IMG/VR virus record: IMGVR_UViG_3300024433_000007
Coordinates: 1 to 54,491 of that record
Length of the DNA: 54,491 bases
Source of the DNA: a virus
Strand: one strand, 5' to 3'
Under the pieces are notes generated by a model. The model did not search any database. It worked only from the letters and a program-made list of their open reading frames with translations, and was not told where the DNA came from. A program made the position numbers and the translations under genes. Positions 3,170 to 25,418 of this stretch are shown here, piece after piece; position 1 is the first letter of the stretch; each line of letters starts with the position of its first letter.

Positions 3170-4471
3170 CTACTTTCTTATCTCAGAATATTCGGTCAAT
3201 CTTCCATACTTCCTCAAGAAAGACTTAATCTCCTCGTCTACATCAAGAGCATCAGCATCGACCAGAACCTTTACATATCCTGACATATCCTTCAAAGCCT
3301 GCTTCCGAACTTGGGTATGTACAATATAGGGAAGAGGACGATCCTTTACACCATTTAATGAAAACAGCGTTGAAACAGCCTGTCGATTGAACGTGCTTGC
3401 GATGGAATCTGCCCACCCTTCGAGGCTTAGATGAAACAAGTCCATAATATCCTTCGAGAGAGCATACGATCCTGTACGTTCCATTCCAAGCATAACAAAT
3501 TGGGCCAATAATGAGATGGCAATCTCTTTGCTATATCTGTTGATGATTGCTGTAGTATCAAATTGCTTTGCTCCTGGAGCAGATAACAGTGAAAGTTTCC
3601 ATCCATGCGGCTGCAATATTCCATCTTGCTCATCTACTCTAACATTTGTAACTATCTTCTTCGCCCAATCTAATACCGCTCTAGTTTCAGGCGAGTCATC
3701 ATCCATCTTCAGACCCTCTGGAAGATCCATTACAGGAAGCCCATTCACATCTCTCTCTACACCAATACCCTCAATCTCCTCCATATTCTTGCGAAAATAC
3801 CACGGTCGATAACAGTTTCGTAGGAGACTTCTTCCCTCCGGATTATTTGCCCACGGATCAGTTCTAAAATGGATTAGTTTCTTTATCGGAATATAAACAG
3901 TTCTTCCCTCCAAGGGAGGCCTCTGCCACATACCTATCATATCCCCTACATCGTCTATATCCCATCTCTCCAAAGAACTCTGTGCCCTAAGAGGAAGCTT
4001 CTTCCAAACAACTTTCCCATCATCTCTCCGCTTATAAACCTGCTCAAAACTTGCCCATCCGTAAATGAACTGACTCATTGACTCTGCAATAAATTCCGAC
4101 CATGTATGAGTCATAGAGCGCATGCAATCTTCAAGAAATAAACCATCAGCATCTAACTCTTTTGCCTCCGAATTAGCCGATCTAACCGACCATCTAACCT
4201 CCTTCAAAATCTGTCTAATAGCAAGTAGACATCCACCAACGATGGGATCATTATCAGACATCTCACGGTAGACTGCAATCCCCCGTTTCCCTCGTAGATC
4301 AATGAAGAACTCTTCCAGAATTTGTCCGTAACTCCACTTCAATCCAGATTTGCCTACCTCAGTCAGCATGAGATTCCTTCTCGTAGGCTTTTTGTACTCT
4401 CCTGCAGGATAGTCTAAATCTCTTTTTCTGTCGATTGGTACTTGAGAACGTGCCTTCTTAAACCATGCCAT
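3170..4471 (-). CDS. Portal protein (DUF935/Mu gp29-like)
   Basis: Portal proteins form the dodecameric ring at the capsid vertex through which DNA is pumped. This 433-aa protein has the features of the DUF935/gp29-like group: YREMSDNDPIVGGCLLAIRQ near the N-terminus, then WSEFIAESMSQFIYGWASFE and WKKLPLRAQSSLERWDID, and a C-terminal helical region. It lies immediately after large terminase. I chose the ATG at 4471 because GGAGAAGGAG precedes it at proper spacing; the longer in-frame start at 4492 has no such site. The start overlaps the end of the terminase gene by 14 bases, which suggests translational coupling. Confidence 0.88.
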   Translation of the reverse strand: MAWFKKARSQVPIDRKRDLDYPAGEYKKPTRRNLMLTEVGKSGLKWSYGQILEEFFIDLRGKRGIAVYREMSDNDPIVGGCLLAIRQILKEVRWSVRSANSEAKELDADGLFLEDCMRSMTHTWSEFIAESMSQFIYGWASFEQVYKRRDDGKVVWKKLPLRAQSSLERWDIDDVGDMIGMWQRPPLEGRTVYIPIKKLIHFRTDPWANNPEGRSLLRNCYRPWYFRKNMEEIEGIGVERDVNGLPVMDLPEGLKMDDDSPETRAVLDWAKKIVTNVRVDEQDGILQPHGWKLSLLSAPGAKQFDTTAIINRYSKEIAISLLAQFVMLGMERTGSYALSKDIMDLFHLSLEGWADSIASTFNRQAVSTLFSLNGVKDRPLPYIVHTQVRKQALKDMSGYVKVLVDADALDVDEEIKSFLRKYGRLTEYSEIRK

Positions 4472-5957
4472 AGAATCTCCTTCTCCTTGCATGAGGACTA
4501 AAATTCCTTGAACTCCAGACGGACTTTTTCGTCATGTCTCCCGTATTCCTTATTACATTCCCCGGAAATTCATATATAACAACTCTTATTCCCCGACAAG
4601 CATCTGGACTAAGAAATGCCATGTAGGTTGCATCAGCATAGTCGGGAGACTTCATTGCACGAGCCAACATATCCTCTTTAGACTCGATCTTAATCTTGAG
4701 ATTTGATGTTGGTTTAGTTCTTATATCTCCCAATTCCATTATTACTCTATTAGGCCAATCCTTACAATATAAAGATGGAATCATCTCTCTAAGTTGCCAA
4801 TATCCCTGAGCTCTTAAATTTAAGTATCTTTCCTTTACTTCTGTCTCTGGAGCCATACTTCCTACAACTGGGACAATCATATCTCCGTAAATATCGTGGA
4901 GGCCATCATATACTCCTGCACCAATTCCAATAGCATCAACTTTTATATTAGTAGGCCCAAATTCATTGATGTACTCTATAGTCCACTGACAAATCTCTGA
5001 TGTATCTGTAACTGAACCTTTCTTATGCCTTTCATCATATTTCAGAACTTTGTTTCCCTGACGGATACATAATACACTAGATGCTCTTGCCCTCCCAACA
5101 TCAAGACCGAATTCTACAGGAAAACCTTTTACATCTGGAGGACTGTTATTTTCCATAGTATCAAGAAAGGAAGGAGGAACAAGATAAGTCGCATCGCCGG
5201 TTGCGAACTCGCCCAAAACCTTAATCATGAAGATCGGGTGATTCTCTCCATACCGTTCTGCCATCATCTCAATATATCTCTTACCAACTCTTGGTGAATC
5301 ATAACACGAAACATGCATATGGTGATACATTCTTTTCAAAGCTGGGTTGTTGAAGGTATCATAAAAGTACCCGTTTGTACGAGTAGGATTTCCTGCAAGG
5401 ATACAATATGAACCATCACCAGTAAGAGCTCCTTCCATAGCAGGAAAGATCGCATCAGGTACACCTGAAGCCTCATCCACGATGAAAAGAATATTTTCCT
5501 CATCATGAAAGCCCTGAAGTCCCTCAGCAACCTCTGCTCCAGGTCTAACTTGTGCAGTTCGAGCAACTGCATGCCATGCAGGTTCATGTCCCTTAACACC
5601 AACTCTCGTCTGCGTCCAAATAAAAAGATTACTTAATATTGGACTATTGTTGATTCTTTTGAAATGCTCTGACCATAAAACATCATGTAACTGATGCTGC
5701 GAAGGTGCTGTAGAAGGAACTTTAGAACCAGGTCTTGTAAAGAGGAACCATCTCGAAGCAAGGCCCAAGAGGAAAGTTTTTCCAACTCCAGAGCCTGAGC
5801 GAAGTGCAAGAAAATGATGCTCAACTAAGTTTTCCAGAGCTTCTATCTGCCACGGATCTAGTGCAACTCCTTCAATTTCCTCCGCATAAGCGACAGGATC
5901 ATTGTAATAATGTTGAATTGCATCTATAACTTCTTGATTTTCATGTACTGCTTCCAC
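4458..5957 (-). CDS. terL: Terminase large subunit
   Basis: The packaging ATPase-nuclease. The ATPase half shows Walker A GSGVGKT at residues 55-61, Walker B ILFIVDEASG with D161/E162, and a coupling motif ILAGNPTRTNGYFYD near 187-200. The nuclease half starts with FGLDVGRA (D286) and has further acidic positions at VDAIGIGAG and SPDYADA, as in RNase H-fold terminase nucleases. The length (499 aa) is typical. The gene begins with GTG at 5955-5957, sharing its first base with the TAG of the lipoprotein gene. The order terS-lipoprotein-terL-portal is conventional except for the inserted lipoprotein. Confidence 0.95.
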   Translation of the reverse strand: MEAVHENQEVIDAIQHYYNDPVAYAEEIEGVALDPWQIEALENLVEHHFLALRSGSGVGKTFLLGLASRWFLFTRPGSKVPSTAPSQHQLHDVLWSEHFKRINNSPILSNLFIWTQTRVGVKGHEPAWHAVARTAQVRPGAEVAEGLQGFHDEENILFIVDEASGVPDAIFPAMEGALTGDGSYCILAGNPTRTNGYFYDTFNNPALKRMYHHMHVSCYDSPRVGKRYIEMMAERYGENHPIFMIKVLGEFATGDATYLVPPSFLDTMENNSPPDVKGFPVEFGLDVGRARASSVLCIRQGNKVLKYDERHKKGSVTDTSEICQWTIEYINEFGPTNIKVDAIGIGAGVYDGLHDIYGDMIVPVVGSMAPETEVKERYLNLRAQGYWQLREMIPSLYCKDWPNRVIMELGDIRTKPTSNLKIKIESKEDMLARAMKSPDYADATYMAFLSPDACRGIRVVIYEFPGNVIRNTGDMTKKSVWSSRNFSPHARRRRFYGMV

Positions 5958-6345: not shown

Positions 6346-6810
6346 TCACTGCTCTCCGCCAGCCCTAGTGACCTCGATAGGTTTATCATTCTCCTTCTCA
6401 GCCTCCCGTTGTTTCCGTGCTTCGATGATGAGATCAGACAAGTTTATATGCCCCACAAGCTTTTTATCTGTAGGCTTAAGCCCTCCACGATCAAGAACGT
6501 CCCAAGCAGACTTCAGTCTAAGACTTCGATCAATAAGTGGATTTCCTACCGTCTCTCGACAGAGGATAGCTGCATCTTTCATTGTATTGGTTATGACTTC
6601 TAAGGCTTCGACCCTCCCATCTCCGCCAAGGATTTTCGTCCTTGTTTCATATTCAAGCTCACTTAGCGTGCTGGCAAACAAAGGATCATGTAGCCACCCA
6701 TTAATCGTAGCAGTTGCTAAGTTTAATTCTTCTGCTATCTCCTTTGGCGTTTCGGCTACGAGCAGCCTTCGCATTACTTCCTTGTGTCTGATTGTTATTT
6801 TTTTCAGCAT
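6346..6810 (-). CDS. terS: Terminase small subunit-like protein
   Basis: 154 aa. The N-terminal ~45 residues (KEVMRRLLVAETPKEIAEEL then NLATATINGWLHDPLF) form a helix-turn-helix of the type that small terminases and phBC6A51-like proteins use to bind packaging-site DNA. A long helical region follows, with LRLKSAWDVLDRGGLKPTDK, a motif seen in many small terminases. The C-terminus is charged. The gene directly precedes the lipoprotein and large terminase. The ATG at 6810 has only a weak GAGATGAG upstream; an in-frame ATG at 6774 (MRRLLVAE) is a possible alternative. Confidence 0.8.
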   Translation of the reverse strand: MLKKITIRHKEVMRRLLVAETPKEIAEELNLATATINGWLHDPLFASTLSELEYETRTKILGGDGRVEALEVITNTMKDAAILCRETVGNPLIDRSLRLKSAWDVLDRGGLKPTDKKLVGHINLSDLIIEARKQREAEKENDKPIEVTRAGGEQ

Positions 6811-6943
6811 TTAGTTTCTCATCTCGCCGTAAGGCGTTAAGTTTCTCTACAAGATGTTTTAAACGATTTTTATCGTGCATTATTTTGTCTCTGGGCATTG
6901 GGGGATATATATATGCTTCATCTGTCATAGATTCATGTTTCAT
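6701..6943 (-). CDS. Possible small charged protein overlapping terS
   Basis: An 80-codon frame whose first ~45 residues lie outside terS and look protein-like (YIYPPMPRDKIMHDKNRLKH, then VEKLNALRRDEKLN). Its last ~36 codons overlap the first part of terS in another frame and are low-complexity (Asn/Ala/Arg/Lys). Only a weak GGAAG is found upstream. It could be the first gene of the leftward operon, or a chance frame. Low confidence because of the 110-base overlap. Confidence 0.3.
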   Translation of the reverse strand: MKHESMTDEAYIYPPMPRDKIMHDKNRLKHLVEKLNALRRDEKLNAEKNNNQTQGSNAKAARSRNAKGDSRRIKLSNCYD

Positions 6944-7398
6944 TGTTTAGAGCTTCCATTCCTTAAATTTTATGCCTTTATAACTCAAAAGTCAAACACT
7001 TTTACGATCTTAATTTACTGTGTTTAATATTTCTTGATAATCACTCTCATCACTTCCACATATGTATCAATCAGGCTCATCCAGTTTTGCTGCTTTTTGA
7101 TAATCACCTAATTAAGTTCAGGAAAATGATTATCATTCTATATGCAACTTTATTGCTGCGAGCTTGCTCGGCTCTGCCAAACGATTATCACGTTTGAAAA
7201 TTGGGCGAGTTTAGAGAGCGACCCGCATAAACTTCAGAGCATCTAATTTTGCATGATATTTCAAATAAACTTCATGTAGGCCTACAAAGTTGTAGCCTGC
7301 TAACATTGTTAGGCTTATAGAATGTTCTCAGATTGTTTTAGCTGGCATGGTTATTGCTATTGCAAAGTTTGTGCCAAAAGGAAAAGGATAAAAAAAGA
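6944..7398. promoter_or_regulatory. Control region of the leftward packaging operon
   Basis: I see no gene here. It holds four copies of a GATAATCA-type site: identical TTGATAATCAC at 7034-7044 and 7097-7107, ATGATTATCAT (a perfect dyad) at 7126-7136, and ATTATCA flanked by AAACG/CGTTT at 7179-7195. A 12-bp palindrome TGTAGGCCTACA lies at 7275-7286 and a CTAAC/GTTAG hairpin near 7300-7312. The clustering ahead of the terminase operon suggests operator or activator sites for late leftward transcription. This is inference from repetition and position. Confidence 0.5.
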
Positions 7399-7420
7399 GG
7401 TGCAAGTATAACCTTGCACC
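7399..7420 (-). terminator. Rho-independent terminator, distal copy
   Basis: On the minus strand GGTGCAAG-GTTATA-CTTGCACC is an eight-pair stem followed by TCTTTTTT. It is the second of two consecutive terminators downstream of the gene at 7512-7826 and would stop leftward transcripts before the terminase control region. Confidence 0.75.
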
Positions 7421-7478
7421 TTCATTGAGTTATCTCATTTCTTTTTCCTTTCATTTTAAATTGTTAACCTTAAAAAGA

Positions 7479-7500
7479 GGTGCACCCTCCAAAGTGCACC
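7479..7500 (-). terminator. Rho-independent terminator, proximal copy
   Basis: On the minus strand GGTGCAC-TTTGGAGG-GTGCACC followed by TCTTTTT lies 12 bases beyond the stop codon of the gene at 7512-7826. It shares the GGTGCA arm and the T-run flank with the distal terminator, as if one was copied from the other. Confidence 0.75.
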
Positions 7501-7511
7501 CTATTTTAAAA

Positions 7512-7826
7512 CTAACCTTTGATACCCCACTTTACCCGCAACGCCTTGATCTCTGTTGCAAACTCGGTGTTACTCTTTTCAAGCGCCTTACTTTGTGCCT
7601 GCGTACTCTTGACACGAGCAAGGTCATTGCGAGCATCCGTTTTTATTTGACGATTGATTAACTCCATTACACCTTTGCAAGTGTAACGTTTGGTTGCCTT
7701 TTTCAAACCCTCCTCATTAAGTGAGTAAGCAGGACAACTCCCCTTGCCTAAGACGTTCCCGTCCTTGTCTTTTGCGGTAACTTCAACCTTAAATTCAGTT
7801 ACCTTATTACCGTTAGCATTTTCCAT
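7512..7826 (-). CDS. Small protein, paralogue of the 19117-19392 product
   Basis: 104 aa with a strong GAGGAG site seven bases before the ATG. N-terminal half: beta-type segment (TEFKVEVTAKDKDGNVLGKG). C-terminal half: helical, ending ALEKSNTEFATEIKALRVKW. The arrangement matches the 91-aa product at 19117 (TVEVKSKGTVVDTVTVSKYE, helical C-terminus ending VKAEIDALIAKYQK), including the HIN/LIN and TNAAR/RNDLAR steps. I read the two as paralogues. It is a lone leftward gene isolated by tandem terminators and facing the repeat-rich region, suggesting separate, perhaps strong, expression. A DNA-binding or structural-nucleoid role is a guess. Confidence 0.75.
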   Translation of the reverse strand: MENANGNKVTEFKVEVTAKDKDGNVLGKGSCPAYSLNEEGLKKATKRYTCKGVMELINRQIKTDARNDLARVKSTQAQSKALEKSNTEFATEIKALRVKWGIKG

Positions 7827-8137
7827 AATTCAACTCCTCTTGCTTTAGGTTTTGATTGCAAGGCTTTTCTGGTAGCCTTTAACCATTTCAATTTTCAAAA
7901 AACGTGTGTGCAATTTGTTTGTAACTACCTTATAATGTAGCAATTCCTATGCCAAACAGAAATAATTACTACAAAAAATATAGCCTTAAAACCTTACTGG
8001 TATTGAGTTTGTAAGCATTTAATTATTAGTTGCTTTTAACCTTAAAAAGCTGTGTCAAATTTAACGCAGTTGTGAAAATATAACACACTAAAAATGTAAT
8101 GATATTAAATAGTTAGCCTACTGTGTTTTAGTTTCAC

Positions 8138-8255
8138 ACTATGTAATATGAGCAAGCAATAATTAAGTAAAAATTACATAGTCTTATGAAAAAATTGCGT
8201 AGTAGAAACGTAAGCATTTCAATATATTAGCCTTACTATGTAAAAAGTACATAGT
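8138..8255. repeat. ACTATGTA repeat sites
   Basis: ACTATGTAAT at 8138-8147, its inverse ATTACATAGT at 8173-8182, and a perfect inverted pair ACTATGTA-AAAAG-TACATAGT at 8235-8255. The spacing (about 35 and 62 bases) is irregular. Confidence 0.6.
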
Positions 8256-8333
8256 ATAGATAGAGTATATAACTTATAGCATATTATATCAAATTATATT
8301 AATCTATATGATCTGACTTCTCTATCAATTATT

Positions 8334-8499
8334 TGTCGGATGATCTACTGTCCTTGTCGGGTACCCTAATGGAATATTTTACATTTCTTGGATGATGCTA
8401 CCGTTCTGTCGGATCATCTCGTGGAATATTTTTCGACTTGTCGAATGATTCTGTCGTAACTTCATTCGATGAAATTACTAAGGCTGTGTCGGATGATCG
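8334..8499 (+). repeat. TGTCGGATGATC direct repeats (iteron-like)
   Basis: Four direct copies: TGTCGGATGATCT (8334-8346), TGTCGGATCATCT (8407-8419), TGTCGAATGATTC (8439-8451) and TGTCGGATGATCG (8487-8499). A degenerate TGTCGGGTACCCT lies near 8355. All are in the same orientation. Confidence 0.7.
8461..8478 (+). repeat. Diverged copy of the dispersed TGAAATTAC palindrome
   Basis: TTCATTCGATGAAATTAC has TTCAT/ATGAA arms and the same TGAAATTAC tail as the palindromes at 9029, 19450 and 45711. Confidence 0.4.
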
Positions 8500-8565
8500 T
8501 ATGCAAGAATTGTGCCAAATATATAGGTGGATATTAAAGAGTTTTTTCCTCAATAAAATCAAACA

Positions 8566-8609
8566 CTTAACAGTTATCCCTGAAAGTTTTTTGAGGGATA
8601 ATTGTTAAG
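8566..8609. repeat. 16-bp-arm inverted repeat
   Basis: CTTAACAGTTATCCCT and AGGGATAATTGTTAAG pair over 15 of 16 positions around a 12-base loop. Each arm carries one TTATCCC/GGGATAA site, so this is both a potential hairpin and a pair of inverted protein-binding sites. Confidence 0.7.
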
Positions 8610-9021
8610 TTATTGAGATCACTAAAGAAACAAGAAAAATTTGCTTTTGGGTTATCCTTGCAGGGATAACCGTTAAGTTATTGAAATAACTGAATAATTA
8701 GCAATTATCCCCCAATTATCCCGTTATCCCAACACTCGTTATAGGTTTCCGGTGAAGTTACGCAGCATTTTAGAGTTATGGACTTCTCTTAGTGAATAAA
8801 TATATATATATATACATATATAAAGATAGATACATAATTTCACCACTAAACAAAAAGGCGTATGTCAGGATAAGGGATAATTGGATAACCCAAACGAATT
8901 GTTCAATAATTTCAATAACTTACGTCAACTTTTGCGTTATCCCCTCTCGGATAATTCTATCGACAATTTCAAAAAAGTCAAGTAATTTCAAGGACTTATA
9001 CCCGCTTTTGACTGGATAACC
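8574..9021. repeat. TTATCCC/GGGATAA site cluster
   Basis: Thirteen TTATCC/GGATAA cores in both orientations, eight of them with a third C/G. They start at about 8574, 8595, 8650, 8663, 8705, 8716, 8724, 8868, 8874, 8883, 8937, 8949 and 9014. Two form the hairpin GGTTATCC/GGATAACC at 8650-8671, and three lie head to tail at 8705-8730. The density is far above chance for one motif. Confidence 0.65.
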
Positions 9022-9028
9022 GCATTCG

Positions 9029-9052
9029 TATTTTCACCGACTGAAATTACAC
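9029..9052 (+). repeat. Dispersed palindrome, copy 1
   Basis: TATTTTCA-CCGAC-TGAAATTAC: arms TTTCA/TGAAA around a five-base centre. The centre CCGAC is the reverse complement of the GTCGG in the copy at 19450, while the outer flanks keep the same orientation. Confidence 0.65.
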
Positions 9053-9277
9053 AGCCAGACAAGCTGGCTCCAACAAAGCTGGGATCAGCGGGGAACCAGA
9101 ATCAACAGAGAAAATATGGAACCTTAAATTTTCAAGTTATTTCAACCACTTACAACACAAGGAAATTACTTACAGTAAAATTTACAGTCAAGCAATTTAC
9201 ATACCAAACAAGAAAATTGTCGCCTAACCTATTGAAATTACTAAAGAAAAATCTTTTTTTAACTAAAGTGGAAAAAA

Positions 9278-9309
9278 GACTTGACAAGTCTATTTGAAAA
9301 TGTTAGTAT
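9278..9309 (+). promoter_or_regulatory. Sigma70-type early promoter with operator-like dyad
   Basis: A perfect -35 TTGACA (9281-9286), a 17-base spacer and TAGTAT as -10 (9304-9309), about 60 bases before the first rightward gene. GACTTGACAAGTC (9278-9290) is a perfect dyad around one central base and covers the -35 box, so a repressor bound there would block the promoter. The leader also contains GTTGAT/ATCAAC arms (about 9320-9352). Confidence 0.7.
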
Positions 9310-9369
9310 CCCCATAGCGGTTGATGGAGATATAAGTAAAATCAGGATCAACGTTTAAAGGAGAATGAC

Positions 9370-9549
9370 ATAGAAAACTCAATTTCAGGATTACTGCTTA
9401 AGAAAGCAGAACAGTATCGAATCGACCTAATTTGGCGTGGCAAGTTGAAGGTCGATGAAGAATATCTCGTACAGTTTAGAATGCACACAGAGCAAATAGT
9501 ATTCTACAGAGAAGAAGGAGAAGAACTTATAGAATCATTTAACTTTTAG
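9370..9549 (+). CDS. Small early protein with apparent ATA start, 59 aa
   Basis: First gene after the early promoter. The frame AEQYRIDLIWRGKLKVDEEY ... EEGEELIESFNF is clearly protein-like and ends two codons before the next gene's ribosome-binding site. No ATG, GTG or TTG lies at its beginning. AAGGAG (9358-9363) is six bases before an ATA at 9370, the ideal spacing for initiation. The ATG at 9365 is out of frame and hits TAG after two codons. Either ATA is used as a start, or there is a sequence error or mutation. Function unknown. Confidence 0.5.
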   Translation: MENSISGLLLKKAEQYRIDLIWRGKLKVDEEYLVQFRMHTEQIVFYREEGEELIESFNF

Positions 9550-9558
9550 GAGGATAAC

Positions 9559-10107
9559 ATGGCAAGACCGAAAGGAACAAACAAGAATGTAAGAATCAAA
9601 GAAGTTGGTGATTTTTTAGAGCATCACCAAAAGATGGATAAGGCTATGGACAGGATCGGAAAGCCCAGATCAAAGCATTCCGATCCAATAGACGCAATCA
9701 AGATTTTTGACAAAGCCCTGCAAGCAGGTACAGATGCCCTCAAAGCCTGCATACCCACTCCGATGGTCGTTCAATTACACAAAGACGTAACTGATGACCA
9801 TTCAGATGTCATCAAATCCTACCACATTTCAGACGGAGTATGTGGCTTCGCCTGGATCAACATTAAACTCACAAATATACCATCCAGACAATTTATCAAT
9901 GCCTTAAAAAAGGCAAAATTAGCGACCGCTGACATCAATTCATTCAATCATGAGCCCTTTAAAAAAAGTTTATATTATGGAGGATACATGTATTGGATTC
10001 ATCAAGGCAACCAAAGCATGCAAAAGAAAGAAGCATTTGCACGTGCATTCGCAGCTGTTTTGATCAATGAGGGAATTAAGGTCCGGACAGGATCAAGGAT
10101 GGATTAA
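9559..10107 (+). CDS. Early protein of unknown function, 182 aa
   Basis: Starts behind AGGAGGATAAC. The N-terminus is basic (MARPKGTNKNVRIKEVGDFL), followed by helical segments and a mixed alpha/beta C-terminal half (SDGVCGFAWINIKLTN ... YYGGYMYWIHQGNQSMQKKE). I do not recognise a family. As the largest product near the candidate origin and early promoter it could be a regulator or an inhibitor of host functions; nothing in the sequence proves either. Confidence 0.8.
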   Translation: MARPKGTNKNVRIKEVGDFLEHHQKMDKAMDRIGKPRSKHSDPIDAIKIFDKALQAGTDALKACIPTPMVVQLHKDVTDDHSDVIKSYHISDGVCGFAWINIKLTNIPSRQFINALKKAKLATADINSFNHEPFKKSLYYGGYMYWIHQGNQSMQKKEAFARAFAAVLINEGIKVRTGSRMD

Positions 10108-20660: not shown

Positions 20661-21536
20661 ATGGAAGAACGTGAATTCTCCTTTTCTAAAATCCTTACTT
20701 ATAGTACCTGCCCTGAAAAGTACCACCTCTGTTATGGCAATCCGAGAATACTTCCTGTCCAAAAACCCAAACCTCTCGCAATGGGATCTTGCTTGGCAAA
20801 GGGTTTTGAAGGATACCGCACTACAGGCACCTTGAAAGGCGCATCTGATGCCTTCCAAAAAGAATGGATAAAAGATGGCAAGGTGCTTGGTATAAGACCC
20901 GATCCGAACAATCCAAAAGATTTCCGTACTGTCGAGAGAGGGTTAGAAATAATGAAAGATTACATTCGTCAGTATCCAAATGATAAGGATCAAATGATCG
21001 AGCCAGAAGTTAGATTTCGCCTTAAGATAGGTGAGATCAATGGAACTGCTATCTTCCTTGTCGGAAGGATCGACGGTGTATTTCTTCTTGGGAAAGATAT
21101 CTGTGTTATTGAGGATAAAAGCACAGCTGCACTCGGCCCTACATATCTACAAAATCTTCGAGATTCTCTACAGATTGGACTTTATCTTTATGCCGCTGAA
21201 AGAGATGGGCTTTTCGATGTTGGAGGTAAAAAGAAAACTCCGAAATGTCTAATGAGTGTGGTTAAGGTTCATCCAAAAGAATTTAAATATGACAGAGACC
21301 TTGCAATCAAATCGAGATCCAGTCTTGAGAAGTATAAAGACAACGCCATGGATTGGATCAGGAGAATAATGTCGTCGGAGGAAACCGGAGTTTTTCCCAA
21401 GAATGATGCAGATAACTTGACTTGTACTAAGTATGGAGGATGCGAGTATTTGCCCCTAAGATATACAGAGGGAAGTATTCGAGAAAGACTTTTGAAGAAT
21501 GAATATAAGATTTTAGATGGAAAGGAGAAAAACTGA
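20661..21536 (+). CDS. PD-(D/E)XK nuclease, RecB/Cas4-like
   Basis: 291 aa. FSFSKILTYSTCPEKYHLCY at the start is the 'S.S....C....Y' entry motif of PDDEXK_1/RecB-type nucleases. The catalytic core is GRIDGVFLLGKDICVIEDKS (Asp, then E-D-K as the ExK motif), followed by SLQIGLYLYAAERDG, the Q-x3-Y motif. C-terminal CTKYGGCEYLP has two cysteines; with Cys17 or Cys24 these could hold an iron-sulfur cluster as in Cas4/AddB, though one usual ligand is not obvious. Probable role: 5'-3' exonuclease of the phage recombination/replication system with the downstream AAA_24 ATPase. Confidence 0.88.
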   Translation: MEEREFSFSKILTYSTCPEKYHLCYGNPRILPVQKPKPLAMGSCLAKGFEGYRTTGTLKGASDAFQKEWIKDGKVLGIRPDPNNPKDFRTVERGLEIMKDYIRQYPNDKDQMIEPEVRFRLKIGEINGTAIFLVGRIDGVFLLGKDICVIEDKSTAALGPTYLQNLRDSLQIGLYLYAAERDGLFDVGGKKKTPKCLMSVVKVHPKEFKYDRDLAIKSRSSLEKYKDNAMDWIRRIMSSEETGVFPKNDADNLTCTKYGGCEYLPLRYTEGSIRERLLKNEYKILDGKEKN

Positions 21537-22169: not shown

Positions 22170-22955
22170 ATGAATTTTTTACTGATATCGCCTCCAGGTG
22201 GAGGTAAAACAACATCTGCCTGTTCAGGCAGACATCCGACGTTGATCGTAGATGTCGATGGTAAAGCTCATGAAATGATGAACATCAAACCTCTAATTGA
22301 TAAAGGCGATGTTGTAGTCAAAGCCTTTGAAGATCGCCTTGTCGAGGATAAGATGTCGTATCGAGCACTTCATCCTGATGAACCTCCGAAGAAGCAGCCC
22401 ACAGGTTTCATCTCTGTCGTAGATTTTCTAAATGAAATCCTCGATGGCAGTGCCGAGCTTGACAAATTCAATACTGTTGTTTTGGATTCACTAACAAGAT
22501 TGAGCGAGCACCTGAAAAGCCTTCTGGTCTATCTTCGTGGACAAGGGAAGTTCGGAAAGAAGATTGAGGGCGACTTAAACTGGCCAAGTTGGGGATCATA
22601 CTTGAAAAACTGGGAGGAATTATTCTCCAACATGTGTACCTACTTTCAGAGGGACTTTATCTGTACAGCTCATCTAAAGATTATGACAGAAAATACAACT
22701 ATGATGGTAGGGCCTCAAGTTGTTGAGACGGAGGTCGTAGTAGGCTATAAACCTCTCATTGATGGACAGATGCGAGACAAACTTTCCGGATACTTTAATG
22801 AATGTTATTTTCTAGAGGCTAAAACTTCAGGGAAAAATCCTAAGTATCAGTTTCGTACAAGGGGAACAAAATACGACGCAAGAACATCATTACCACTTGA
22901 TGAGTTCGAGGATGCAGATATTATGAAGATATTAAGGAAGGCAGGAATCTCATAA
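22170..22955 (+). CDS. AAA_24 RecA-like ATPase (Sak4-type)
   Basis: 261 aa. Walker A SPPGGGKTT (residues 7-15) sits at the very N-terminus, followed by TLIVDVDGKAHEMM, a Walker B-like NTVVLDSLTRLSEHL and TYFQRDFICTAHLKI. This is the layout of AAA_24/Sak4 proteins: short RecA-core ATPases of phages that anneal single-stranded DNA. Neighbours (PD-(D/E)XK nuclease before, DUF669-like protein after) are the usual partners. The gene ends just before the cassette-like array. Confidence 0.85.
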   Translation: MNFLLISPPGGGKTTSACSGRHPTLIVDVDGKAHEMMNIKPLIDKGDVVVKAFEDRLVEDKMSYRALHPDEPPKKQPTGFISVVDFLNEILDGSAELDKFNTVVLDSLTRLSEHLKSLLVYLRGQGKFGKKIEGDLNWPSWGSYLKNWEELFSNMCTYFQRDFICTAHLKIMTENTTMMVGPQVVETEVVVGYKPLIDGQMRDKLSGYFNECYFLEAKTSGKNPKYQFRTRGTKYDARTSLPLDEFEDADIMKILRKAGIS

Positions 22956-22959
22956 AGAA

Positions 22960-23112
22960 ATGAAAAAAGAAATGTGTAAAATCTGCGAAGGGAAAAAATA
23001 CATAAAATATTTTTTGGAGTGTGATGATGCCCCAAGTATAGCATGCCCAAAGTGCAATGGCGGAAGTTGGAAAAAATATAGATATTATGAAAAGCGCATA
23101 AGAAAAATCTAA
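22960..23112 (+). CDS. Cassette gene 1: zinc-ribbon protein, 50 aa
   Basis: CKICEGKKYIKYFLECDDAP then ACPKCNGGSWKKY: two CxxC pairs 20 residues apart, a minimal zinc ribbon related to DnaJ-type or YgiT-like knuckles. Its TAA is the TAA inside the TCTAACAA start of attC-1, a normal arrangement in integron cassettes. Only a weak upstream AAAGAA is seen, so it may be translated by read-on from the ATPase gene. Confidence 0.65.
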   Translation: MKKEMCKICEGKKYIKYFLECDDAPSIACPKCNGGSWKKYRYYEKRIRKI

Positions 23113-23163
23113 CAAGCCTCATGCATCCGACCCCCAAAGTTGCGGCTGATTGAGGCGTTAGGA
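23108..23163 (+). repeat. attC-like site 1
   Basis: TCTAACAAGCCTCA at the left and TGAGGCGTTAGGA at the right are complementary (CTAAC/GTTAG and GCCTCA/TGAGGC), enclosing CCGAC...GTTGCGG. Size 56 bp, within the known range. The last base departs from GTTRRRY. The right end also forms the GTTAGGAGG ribosome-binding site of the next gene. Confidence 0.7.
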
Positions 23164-23169
23164 GGAAAT

Positions 23170-23367
23170 ATGTTAATAATTCTAATGTATGTTGTTATGG
23201 CGTTCATTATTTTTATGTGCGTTGATACCGTGCTTTATGTAAAAGCCCCATGGCCTGAACGTACAAAACACTTTTATTATAAATTGCCTGGTGGAGGAAT
23301 AGTGGCATATTTCCACCTATCAAGCACACAGAACCGACCGCAAAAGCCAAGCAAGATTGAAGAGTAG
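23170..23367 (+). CDS. Cassette gene 2: membrane protein, 65 aa
   Basis: ATG at 23170 behind GTTAGGAGGAAAT, whose AGGAGG is the right edge of attC-1. MLIILMYVVMAFIIFMCVDT is one membrane segment, followed by a soluble tail (FYYKLPGGGIVAYFHLSS). No family recognised. Small membrane proteins are frequent in integron cassettes. Confidence 0.65.
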   Translation: MLIILMYVVMAFIIFMCVDTVLYVKAPWPERTKHFYYKLPGGGIVAYFHLSSTQNRPQKPSKIEE

Positions 23368-23396
23368 TCTGTGTGCGGCTGATTAGGGCGTTAGAT
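23316..23396 (+). repeat. attC-like site 2 (left half degenerate)
   Basis: The right half GCGGCTGATTAGGGCGTTAG AT ends in GTTAGAT, an exact GTTRRRY, and is nearly identical to the right half of site 4. The left half is longer and less regular: GCACACAGA (23324-23332) pairs with TCTGTGTGC (23368-23376), and CCTATCA roughly pairs with TGATTAGG. A canonical left RYYYAAC box is not clear. The stop of cassette gene 2 lies inside. Confidence 0.5.
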
Positions 23397-23404
23397 TTTT
23401 TGTT

Positions 23405-23554
23405 ATGAAAATATCCATATCTTGTCCAGTATGCAGAATTAAATATTGTCTACTTCGTGATGGCATACAATTTATTTGTACGTCATGTGGAAGCTCTTTT
23501 TCTTTTGACGATTTACGCAAAAAATCTAACAAGGCCATCGAGCCGACCCGATAA
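23405..23554 (+). CDS. Cassette gene 3: zinc-ribbon protein, 49 aa
   Basis: ISCPVCRIKYCLLRDGIQFI then CTSCGSSFSFDDL: two CxxC pairs 16 residues apart, like the zinc-ribbon domains of many small regulators. The frame runs into attC-3 and stops at a TAA in its central loop. No ribosome-binding site is seen between GTTAGAT and the ATG. Confidence 0.6.
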   Translation: MKISISCPVCRIKYCLLRDGIQFICTSCGSSFSFDDLRKKSNKAIEPTR

Positions 23555-23582
23555 ATCGTGCGGCTCATAGGCAGCGTTAGAT
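23525..23582 (+). repeat. attC-like site 3 (most canonical)
   Basis: Begins TCTAACAAGGCC and ends GGCAGCGTTAGAT. Outer boxes ATCTAAC/GTTAGAT are complementary over seven bases, GTTAGAT fits GTTRRRY, and the inner GAGCCG/CGGCTC arms pair with an unpaired A after GAGCCG, as in real attC sites. 58 bp. Confidence 0.8.
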
Positions 23583-23599
23583 TTTTAGGAGATATAAAA

Positions 23600-23779
23600 A
23601 TGAAATATAGAAATTCAGTATCATTAGAAGAATGGTTCGAAAGAGCGAGAAGAGGAACATCTGGTGATATGGTATTTGATATTCTTTCCGATTGGAAATT
23701 AGATCGAGATGAATTACTTAAACAAATAAAAAATCTAATCAGTAAATCCAGCCGACAGGATAAACCTGCGGCTGATTAG
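23600..23779 (+). CDS. Cassette gene 4: small protein, 59 aa
   Basis: ATG at 23600 behind TTAGGAGATATAAAA. YRNSVSLEEWFERARRGTSG and DILSDWKLDRDELLKQIKNL suggest a helical domain. The C-terminus (SKSSRQDKPAAD) is encoded by attC-4, and the TAG stop is inside it. Unknown function. Confidence 0.65.
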   Translation: MKYRNSVSLEEWFERARRGTSGDMVFDILSDWKLDRDELLKQIKNLISKSSRQDKPAAD

Positions 23780-23789
23780 GGCGTTAGGC
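23733..23789 (+). repeat. attC-like site 4
   Basis: CAGCCG (23749-23754), an unpaired A, CAGG, loop ATAAA, CCTG and CGGCTG (23769-23774) form a perfect ten-pair hairpin with one extrahelical A, a hallmark of attC. The right end GGGCGTTAGGC gives GTTAGGC, an exact GTTRRRY. The left box is ATCTAATC, one change from the consensus. Confidence 0.75.
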
Positions 23790-23794
23790 AGAAA

Positions 23795-24037
23795 ATGAAA
23801 GAATTATCACAAGCGGATAAAATAGCTATTGAAGTTGCAGGTATATCCATTGGTGATTTACCTAAAGGTTGTCATAATTTTTGCATATTAATTTGGAAAG
23901 TCTTTAATCTGGGCAGAGAGTATGAAAAAGCATTTTCTGCCCAACAAGCCAATAGAGCTGACTGTGAGATACCAGGCGAATTAGACATCTGCAAAACCTG
24001 TGCTGCAAAGAAATTATTTGATGAATCTTTGAAATAA
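23795..24037 (+). CDS. Gene after the last attC-like site, 80 aa
   Basis: Starts six bases after attC-4. MKELSQADKIAIEVAGISIG, CHNFCILIWKVFNLGREYEK and DICKTCAAKKLFDESLK. The C-terminal CxxC plus the earlier CHNFC could bind metal. Either the last cassette or the first resident gene after the array. Function unknown. Confidence 0.6.
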   Translation: MKELSQADKIAIEVAGISIGDLPKGCHNFCILIWKVFNLGREYEKAFSAQQANRADCEIPGELDICKTCAAKKLFDESLK

Positions 24038-24102
24038 GCCCGCCCGTTGGATAGGCCAACAAGCTGAATAAACGTCTTCATTCGACCAGCTAAAGGCGGG
24101 CT
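24037..24102 (+). other. Three-stem structure after the cassette array
   Basis: AGCCCGCC (24037-24044) pairs with GGCGGGCT (24095-24102) and encloses two hairpins: GTTGG/CCAAC (24046-24060) and AGCTG/CAGCT (24062-24091). It does not end in GTTRRRY, so I do not call it attC, but its position at the far end of the array is suggestive. No T-run. Confidence 0.45.
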
Positions 24103-24125
24103 AAACCTAAAAGAAAGGAGTAATT

Positions 24126-25043: not shown

Positions 25044-25418
25044 ATGACAAGAATAAACGTGCATCTTGACGATGTTGAAAGTGGGTTCGAGTTATTCCCT
25101 GATGGCACTCATCTCGTCACAATTCAACCATCTTCAAAGTTGAAGAAGTCCGATGCAGGAGCCTACATCCAAGTCATTTCCAAGTGCGATGAGGGCGAGA
25201 TGGAAGGAAAGATGATTGGATGGAACTGTTCTCTGCTTCCACAAAGCCTCTGGGTTTTGAAGAGCATGCTCGAAGCTCTCGGTCAGAAATGGGATGAGGA
25301 TGGATTTGAGCTTGAAGATATTTTCGAGCAGCAGCTGATGATAGATGTTACCTCAAGAGAGTATCCGGAAGGAAGTGGAGAGTATCGGAATCAGGTTGAT
25401 GGTTATCATGCAGCGTAA
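25044..25418 (+). CDS. DUF669-like single-strand-binding partner, 124 aa
   Basis: NVHLDDVESGFELFPDGTHL VTIQPSSKLKKSDAGAYIQV: a compact beta domain like DUF669 and related phage proteins encoded beside AAA_24/Sak4 ATPases, where a single-stranded DNA-binding function has been proposed. 'PDGTH/Y' and 'K.S.......V' are the typical segments. AAAGGAAAGTCTG precedes the ATG. Confidence 0.65.
   Translation: MTRINVHLDDVESGFELFPDGTHLVTIQPSSKLKKSDAGAYIQVISKCDEGEMEGKMIGWNCSLLPQSLWVLKSMLEALGQKWDEDGFELEDIFEQQLMIDVTSREYPEGSGEYRNQVDGYHAA

Follow-up and report, generated by a model that had tools for sequence, protein, structure and literature searches.

Bacteria use attC sites, recombination sites that form hairpins, to shuffle the gene cassettes of integrons. 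When a cassette is free as a circle, the R'' box of its attC site pairs with the TTRRRY at the start of that same cassette, not with the R' box that comes next in the array. T4-like phages have promoter early stem-loop (PeSL) cassettes, small early genes with stem-loops between them that aid shuffling.

A CALIN is an array that lacks an integron integrase and has two or more attC sites, all pointing the same way, within a few kb. Qi et al. (2023) describe 17 CALINs among 10,705 phage genomes, virulent phages included, and report that IntI1 recombined five of the six phage attC sites tested, with the virulent-phage sites used at bacterial efficiency (PMC9892861). Our literature search found no further papers on phage CALINs as such.

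Here we analyse an array in an uncultivated phage, virus record IMGVR_UViG_3300024433_000007, whose whole 54,491-bp stretch we call the window. Phage CALINs whose attC sites work have been on record since 2023 (PMC9892861), so this array joins a known kind, and the novelty implied by an earlier sequence-only reading of the DNA was overstated. We conclude that the block is very probably a CALIN: a set of very small integron-type cassettes between a Sak4-like annealing gene and an SSB-like gene in a phage early operon. The assignment rests on R and L boxes with an extrahelical base, the cassette pairing rule at two sites (S3 and S4), an integrase undetected in the window, and ORFs that run in the operon direction and end inside attC sites.

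Genome setting and architecture of the attC sites

The portal, large terminase, head protease, major head protein, tail fibre J, DNA polymerase and primase genes of the window match phage families; the window is therefore a tailed-phage genome. Early genes occupy the + strand from about 9.5 to 34 kb, with structural genes on the - strand on either side. The array (22956-24037) sits in the early recombination/replication module, all of its ORFs in the operon direction (+). Upstream is a PD-(D/E)XK exonuclease gene (20661-21536), and directly before the array comes the gene for a Sak4-like single-strand annealing protein of the AAA_24 type (22170-22955, +; PF13479, E 9e-12; phrog_124, Sak4-like ssDNA annealing, E 2e-17). 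A DUF669 or ssDNA-binding-like gene downstream (25044-25418, +; phrog_3724, E 9e-7; phrog_378, SSB, E 0.003) closes the module. The setting first proposed for the array, small cassette-type ORFs in a phage early operon and pointing with it, is thus supported. Elsewhere in the window, positions 7000-9560 form a long AT-rich stretch with no clear genes, with recurring GTTATCC-type inverted repeats and microsatellite runs; it is possibly a replication origin or regulatory region.

No tyrosine recombinase or Phage_integrase was detected in the window, even with matches up to E 10 considered, in agreement with the earlier reading, and inspection identified no attI site in it. The array is not a complete integron, which has both an intI gene and an attI site.

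The sequence-only reading had placed four attC sites between the small genes. S3 (23524-23582, +) has a textbook layout: R'' ATCTAAC, 9-nt spacers, L'' GAGCCG, an extrahelical A, L' CGGCTC and R' GTTAGAT, its ends complementary at 7 of 7 positions as had been claimed. S4 (23733-23789, +; ATCTAAT ... GTTAGGC) is built in the same way except for its R'' box, ATCTAAT, and a right spacer of 8 nt. Its stem, CAGCCG-A-CAGG / CCTG-CGGCTG, has the ten pairs, single extrahelical A and GTTAGGC end already read from the letters. S1 (23107-23163, +; ATCTAAC ... GTTAGGA) has one mismatch in the L stem, and its spacers GCCTCA/TGAGGC pair too. S2 (23315-23396, +) is degenerate: its right half (23374-23396) is the same as that of S4, its left half, from 23315 (ACCTATC), is weak, and its interior contains the 3' end of the second cassette ORF.

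The R'' (RYYYAAC) and R' (GTTRRRY) boxes, mutually complementary in an attC site, are exact in S3; each of the others departs from these motifs at one base, in R'' for S4 (ATCTAAT) and S2 (ACCTATC) and in R' for S1. As first read, S2, S3 and S4 end in an exact GTTRRRY; the end of S1, GTTAGGA, departs from it at one base. S3, S4 and, with one mismatch, S1 have a bottom strand that can fold into an L''/L' stem with spacers and an extrahelical base; S2 does not. The folding z-scores of the bottom-strand DNA are -5.9 for S3, -3.9 for S4, -2.8 for S1 and -0.8 for S2. The near identity noted for the right halves of S1, S2 and S4 is real: the 21-mer TGCGGCTGATTAGGGCGTTAG is the same in S2 and S4 and agrees at 19 of 21 positions in S1. 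Only two other 21-mers are repeated exactly in the window, and both belong to local near-tandem repeats. The motif GCCGAC-N4-24-GCGGCT occurs twice in the window, both times inside the array, against 0.01 occurrences expected.

A simple palindrome and motif finder for attC proved either too strict or too loose, and covariance models were used instead. Integron integrases were located with TIGR02249 among Pseudomonadota and in the phylum to which a KSB1 contig (L079) belongs, and the flanks of their genes supplied the training sites. Model R1 was built from 16 aligned bacterial attC sites, and the window was scanned with filters off. Two of these 16 sites came from a Shewanella contig (L080) that had been found through the window's own 21-mer, and so a second model, R2, was built from 57 attC sites with that contig left out.

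Under R1, S3 scores 37.3 bits (E 3e-7), S4 30.5 (E 2e-5) and S1 19.3 (E 0.012), with the next best match in the window at 10.4. Under R2 the scores are 42.5 (E 1e-7), 30.9 (E 5e-5) and 13.1 (E 0.62). S3 and S4 rank first and second in the 54-kb window with either model and S1 third, all on the + strand, although under R2 its 13.1 bits are equalled by a chance palindrome at 7298. S1 is a marginal site when the model is trained without the Shewanella sites. S2 is not recognised as a whole attC by either model, appearing only as a 3-bit fragment. As a positive control, two attC sites of phage TJE1, from the set shown to recombine (PMC9892861), score 34.2 and 33.4 bits with R2; about 20 other phage loci in the same search, a negative control, gave no match. 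The usual HattCI/Infernal threshold is 20 bits (PMC9892861). Set against it, with R1 and R2 in place of the published IntegronFinder model, S3 and S4 stand above 30 bits, S1 at 19.3 or 13.1, and S2 has no score as a site. Of the four sites first claimed, then, two are clear, a third is marginal under R2 and S2 is half a site. S1, S3 and S4 lie within 683 bp on the + strand, in keeping with the definition of a CALIN. Rfam has no attC family, and the array gave no match at gathering scores and no credible one even at E 10.

Cassettes and the pairing rule

The cassette units of the array measure 206, 211 and 209 bp. ORF c1 (22960-23112, +) encodes 50 aa with two CxxC pairs and stops at the TAA within the R'' box of S1; upstream of it, no GTTRRRY was found that would bound the cassette on the left. 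ORF c2 (23170-23367, +; 65 aa) encodes a predicted small membrane protein (phrog_18969, membrane protein, E 0.003), and upstream of its ATG lies an AGGAGG, part of which falls within the R' box of S1. ORF c3 (23405-23554, +; 49 aa) is of the CPxC...CxxC zinc-ribbon type, with a C-terminus, SNKAIEPTR, translated from the left arm of S3. ORF c4 (23600-23779, +; 59 aa) has no assigned function, and its C-terminus, SKSSRQDKPAAD, is translated from S4. ORF c5 (23795-24037, +; 80 aa), also without assigned function, belongs to the cassette after S4, whose closing attC is not recognisable. The candidates considered for that site, at 23939-24052 and in a hairpin at 24037-24102, fall below threshold in the models. 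The latter, AGCCCGCC/GGCGGGCT (+), is a strong hairpin at the right edge of the array (fold z -4.8 for 24034-24112) without an attC match under R1 or R2.

The array ORFs thus finish in, or run into, their own attC sites, c1 at the TAA of R'' and c3 and c4 by translation of attC arms. Proteins of two other virus contigs, G382 and G418, have similar C-terminal peptides (PNQSLEPTRKDERLS and TSKSSRPELLAAD). Zinc ribbons are in weak excess in cassettes (5 of 42 against 12 of 286, p 0.05, with an ORF filter that dropped c1 and c3 of the window). No convincing relatives of the cassette products emerged from any set searched, plasmid and phage collections included, and those collections yielded no DNA match to the array either.

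Do these sites obey the rule that governs free cassettes? In S4 the R'' box, ATCTAAT, fits the start of its own cassette, GTTAGAT, and not its own R' box, GTTAGGC. Of the variable bases, 4/4 match the own cassette start in both S3 and S4, whereas just 2/4 of those in S4 match the next. The R'' box of S3 fits both its own start and the next R' because the two sequences are identical, and S2, at the end of cassette 2, fits about equally well both ways. We then scored 60 consecutive pairs from viral arrays. The mean match was 3.37/4 to the own start and 2.13/4 to the next, with own exceeding next in 42 pairs and falling below it in 2. The own matches summed to 202, whereas none of 5000 shuffles exceeded 152. 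This set placed the left edge of S2 2 nt early, which touches 1 of the 60 pairs (its own match of 1/4 would be 3/4). S3 and S4 obey the integron cassette rule, and so do the 60 viral pairs taken together.

The attC type and cassette turnover in other phages

The closest comparison is with G382, a 25-kb contig whose tail module is 45-69% identical to that of the window (tail J, 62% over 820 aa). Its array, about ten tiny units, lies directly after a RecT gene, as the window array does after the Sak4-like gene. The attC arms of G382 (ATCCAGCCGAC ... GCGGCTGATTAGGGCGTTAGG) are almost identical to those of S4, and it contains none of the window's cassettes. The same attC type is therefore present in two tail-related phages with fully different cassette content. 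One G382 unit (L012 1890-2060, about 8657-8827 of G382) is GC-rich, structured-looking and apparently non-coding, with no evident ORF and no match in Rfam. Two further contigs of the same metagenome, G413 and G414, start at one base inside the array (G382 8773) and are identical to G382 from there on, which suggests strain variation to the left of that base.

We used RecT, ERF and AAA_24 to ask whether phage arrays generally lie next to annealing recombinases. This holds for the window and G382 and was rejected as a general rule: in G387 and G394 the arrays lie 6-12 kb from RecT or AAA_24, and most array contigs show neither. Searches for near relatives with the Sak4, ParB-methyltransferase and DNA polymerase sequences gave none usable that spans the array. 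A TerL search found near relatives as 5-kb terminase fragments (L175-L177), along with distant phages; a search with the G382 tail protein returned G382 itself, contigs of its metagenome that overlap it, and a single fragment of 4 kb.

A scan of IMG/VR for the attC core gave 76 contigs, many with several model-confirmed attC sites, although some of the 76 may be bacterial DNA. None of 26 such virus records has an integron integrase above the curated cut-off. The 21-mer right half is rare, found in two contigs of the GTDB set, one of them a true Shewanella integron site, and in no other IMG/VR contig. Among 399 Pseudomonadota genomes we found four attC-like single matches of this flavour. With so rare an attC flavour in bacteria and products without convincing relatives, the proposal that the phage captured its cassettes from a host integron was not substantiated. 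In a KSB1 metagenome-assembled genome (L079 3240-3460), two imperfect direct repeats carry the 21-nt right half or a near copy (GTCAAGTGCGGCTGATTGCGGCGTTAGGAATC); that genome has an integron integrase, and R2 does not call the repeats attC. In G385 (L017), divergent attC arrays (1141-1966, -; 6997-7960, +) flank a DNA methyltransferase and a phage-type tyrosine integrase (3665-4807; phrog_1, E 7e-30), the latter far under the integron-integrase cut-off. G392 has a methyltransferase-like ORF with a DPPYG motif between two attC-like sites (7330-8128), in the orientation opposite to theirs; it recalls the methyltransferase cassettes described in PMC9892861.

Two comparisons bear on turnover. L071 (34.6 kb) and L218 (9.5 kb, with TerL) have phage flanks 98-99% identical, and L071 has an extra 537-bp attC-bounded cassette (L071 3601-4201 against L218 1809-1872). 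The junction falls on a common R' core, GCCCAAC, the reverse complement of GTTGGGC, within 11 nt of shared sequence. A neighbouring cassette has been replaced, with edges within the flanking attC stems. G385 (48.9 kb) and G405 (55.9 kb) have one 218-bp cassette in common (G385 6788-7005, G405 2706-2923; 92% identical), which has its left edge at R' and its right edge at R'' and lies between attC bodies that differ, and no other ORF above 45% identity. These comparisons suggest that phages gain and lose mini-cassettes and share them with one another. We therefore infer that cassettes move as discrete units. The junctions at R' would fit an integrase acting in trans, and breaks at R'' or inside attC would fit homologous recombination. 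Some breaks lie at R'' or inside attC bodies, which is not expected of strict IntI crossover at G^TT, so that much of the exchange may be due to homologous recombination.

In a small, non-random sample, units of phage arrays have a median length of 258 bp (n 30) against 724 bp (n 28) for bacterial units, the latter drawn from three large arrays and one Shewanella pair. The evidence of exchange and the miniature units go beyond what is reported in the part of PMC9892861 available to us.

Origin of the array and comparison with known systems

How might such an array work in a phage? Under the CALIN reading, the bottom strand of attC would fold while the phage DNA is single-stranded, and an integron integrase supplied in trans, by the host or by a co-resident element, would join cassettes at G^TTRRRY. 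Expression would come from the operon promoter, as there is no Pc in an array that lacks attI. Homologous recombination by the phage within attC stems could then exchange cassettes further and leave hybrid sites such as S2. The cassettes themselves would be dispensable early accessory genes. Counting against this account are the incomplete S2, the marginal S1 under R2 and the outer cassettes, neither cleanly bounded (c1 on the left, c5 on the right).

The same weak sites and missing outer boundaries, with no integrase detected in the window, would also be expected of a block acquired once by illegitimate recombination and now immobile, its attC sites decaying leftovers. Qi et al. discuss such recombination at GTTRRRY-like motifs (PMC9892861). 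We consider this history rather unlikely, as S3 is near canonical with full R pairing, S4 keeps the cassette rule, and cassettes have recently been gained, lost and shared in other phages.

It is somewhat less likely again that the integron integrase is no longer involved and that attC arms serve as short homologies for the phage's annealing recombinase, Sak4 here and RecT in G382. The two tail-related phages do carry their arrays directly after annealing proteins that are not homologous, cassette edges lie inside attC stems or at R'' in both pairs of contigs compared above, and the right halves of S2 and S4 are identical. Against this, the adjacency is not general, one of the L071/L218 junctions falls on R', and the cassette rule is widely obeyed.

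Phages are known to have short palindromes between their small early genes, and intergenic stem-loops like PeSL, or terminators, might resemble attC by chance. The complete R''-L''-extrahelical A-L'-R' architecture, the model scores, the cassette rule and the same 21-nt right half in a bona fide Shewanella integron site make this highly improbable. A bacterial integron fragment fused to a phage contig during assembly is just as improbable: arrays are repeat-like and do break assemblies (contigs of 3300016457 begin inside one), but this array is internal, with phage genes in the same orientation on both sides and a GC content of 0.38 against 0.40 for the window, and such an array occurs in tail-related G382 as well.

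Returning to the CALIN reading, we put forward, tentatively and with some doubt, a wider proposal: unrelated phage lineages may share a pool of miniature attC cassettes adapted to phages (each about 200-300 bp with one early gene of 50-80 aa), swapped without a phage-encoded integron integrase, by IntI in trans, by phage single-strand annealing machinery within attC stems, or by both. On this view, the array analysed here would be a sample from that pool. What the window itself adds is an uncultivated phage outside the published CALIN list, and the L071/L218 and G385/G405 pairs suggest indirectly that phages exchange cassettes as units. If this is general, phages would both store and carry integron cassettes, whose ORFs would offer candidates for early accessory proteins, for example in counter-defence. 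Phage annealing recombinases can now be tested as cassette shufflers beside integron integrases.

The PeSL cassettes of T4-like phages, unlike the window array, are without R and L boxes, GTTRRRY or the cassette rule. The sedentary chromosomal integron of the Shewanella contig has attC sites with the window's right half (GCGGCTGATTGAGGCGTTAG) between its cassettes; it differs in lying on a bacterial chromosome, in a genome that has an integron integrase. The CALINs of virulent phages, namely Tetrasphaera phage TJE1, Pseudoalteromonas phage H101/PH101 and Polaribacter phage P12002L, are also attC arrays without an integrase, with small ORFs that have no known function (PMC9892861). In TJE1 and PH101 the cassettes likewise run in one direction (PMC9892861), and the TJE1 sites score 33-34 bits with R2, as S4 nearly does. 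Compared with these arrays (PMC9892861), the window's has no methyltransferase cassette, belongs to an uncultivated phage, is made of units of about 210 bp and comes after a Sak4-like gene.
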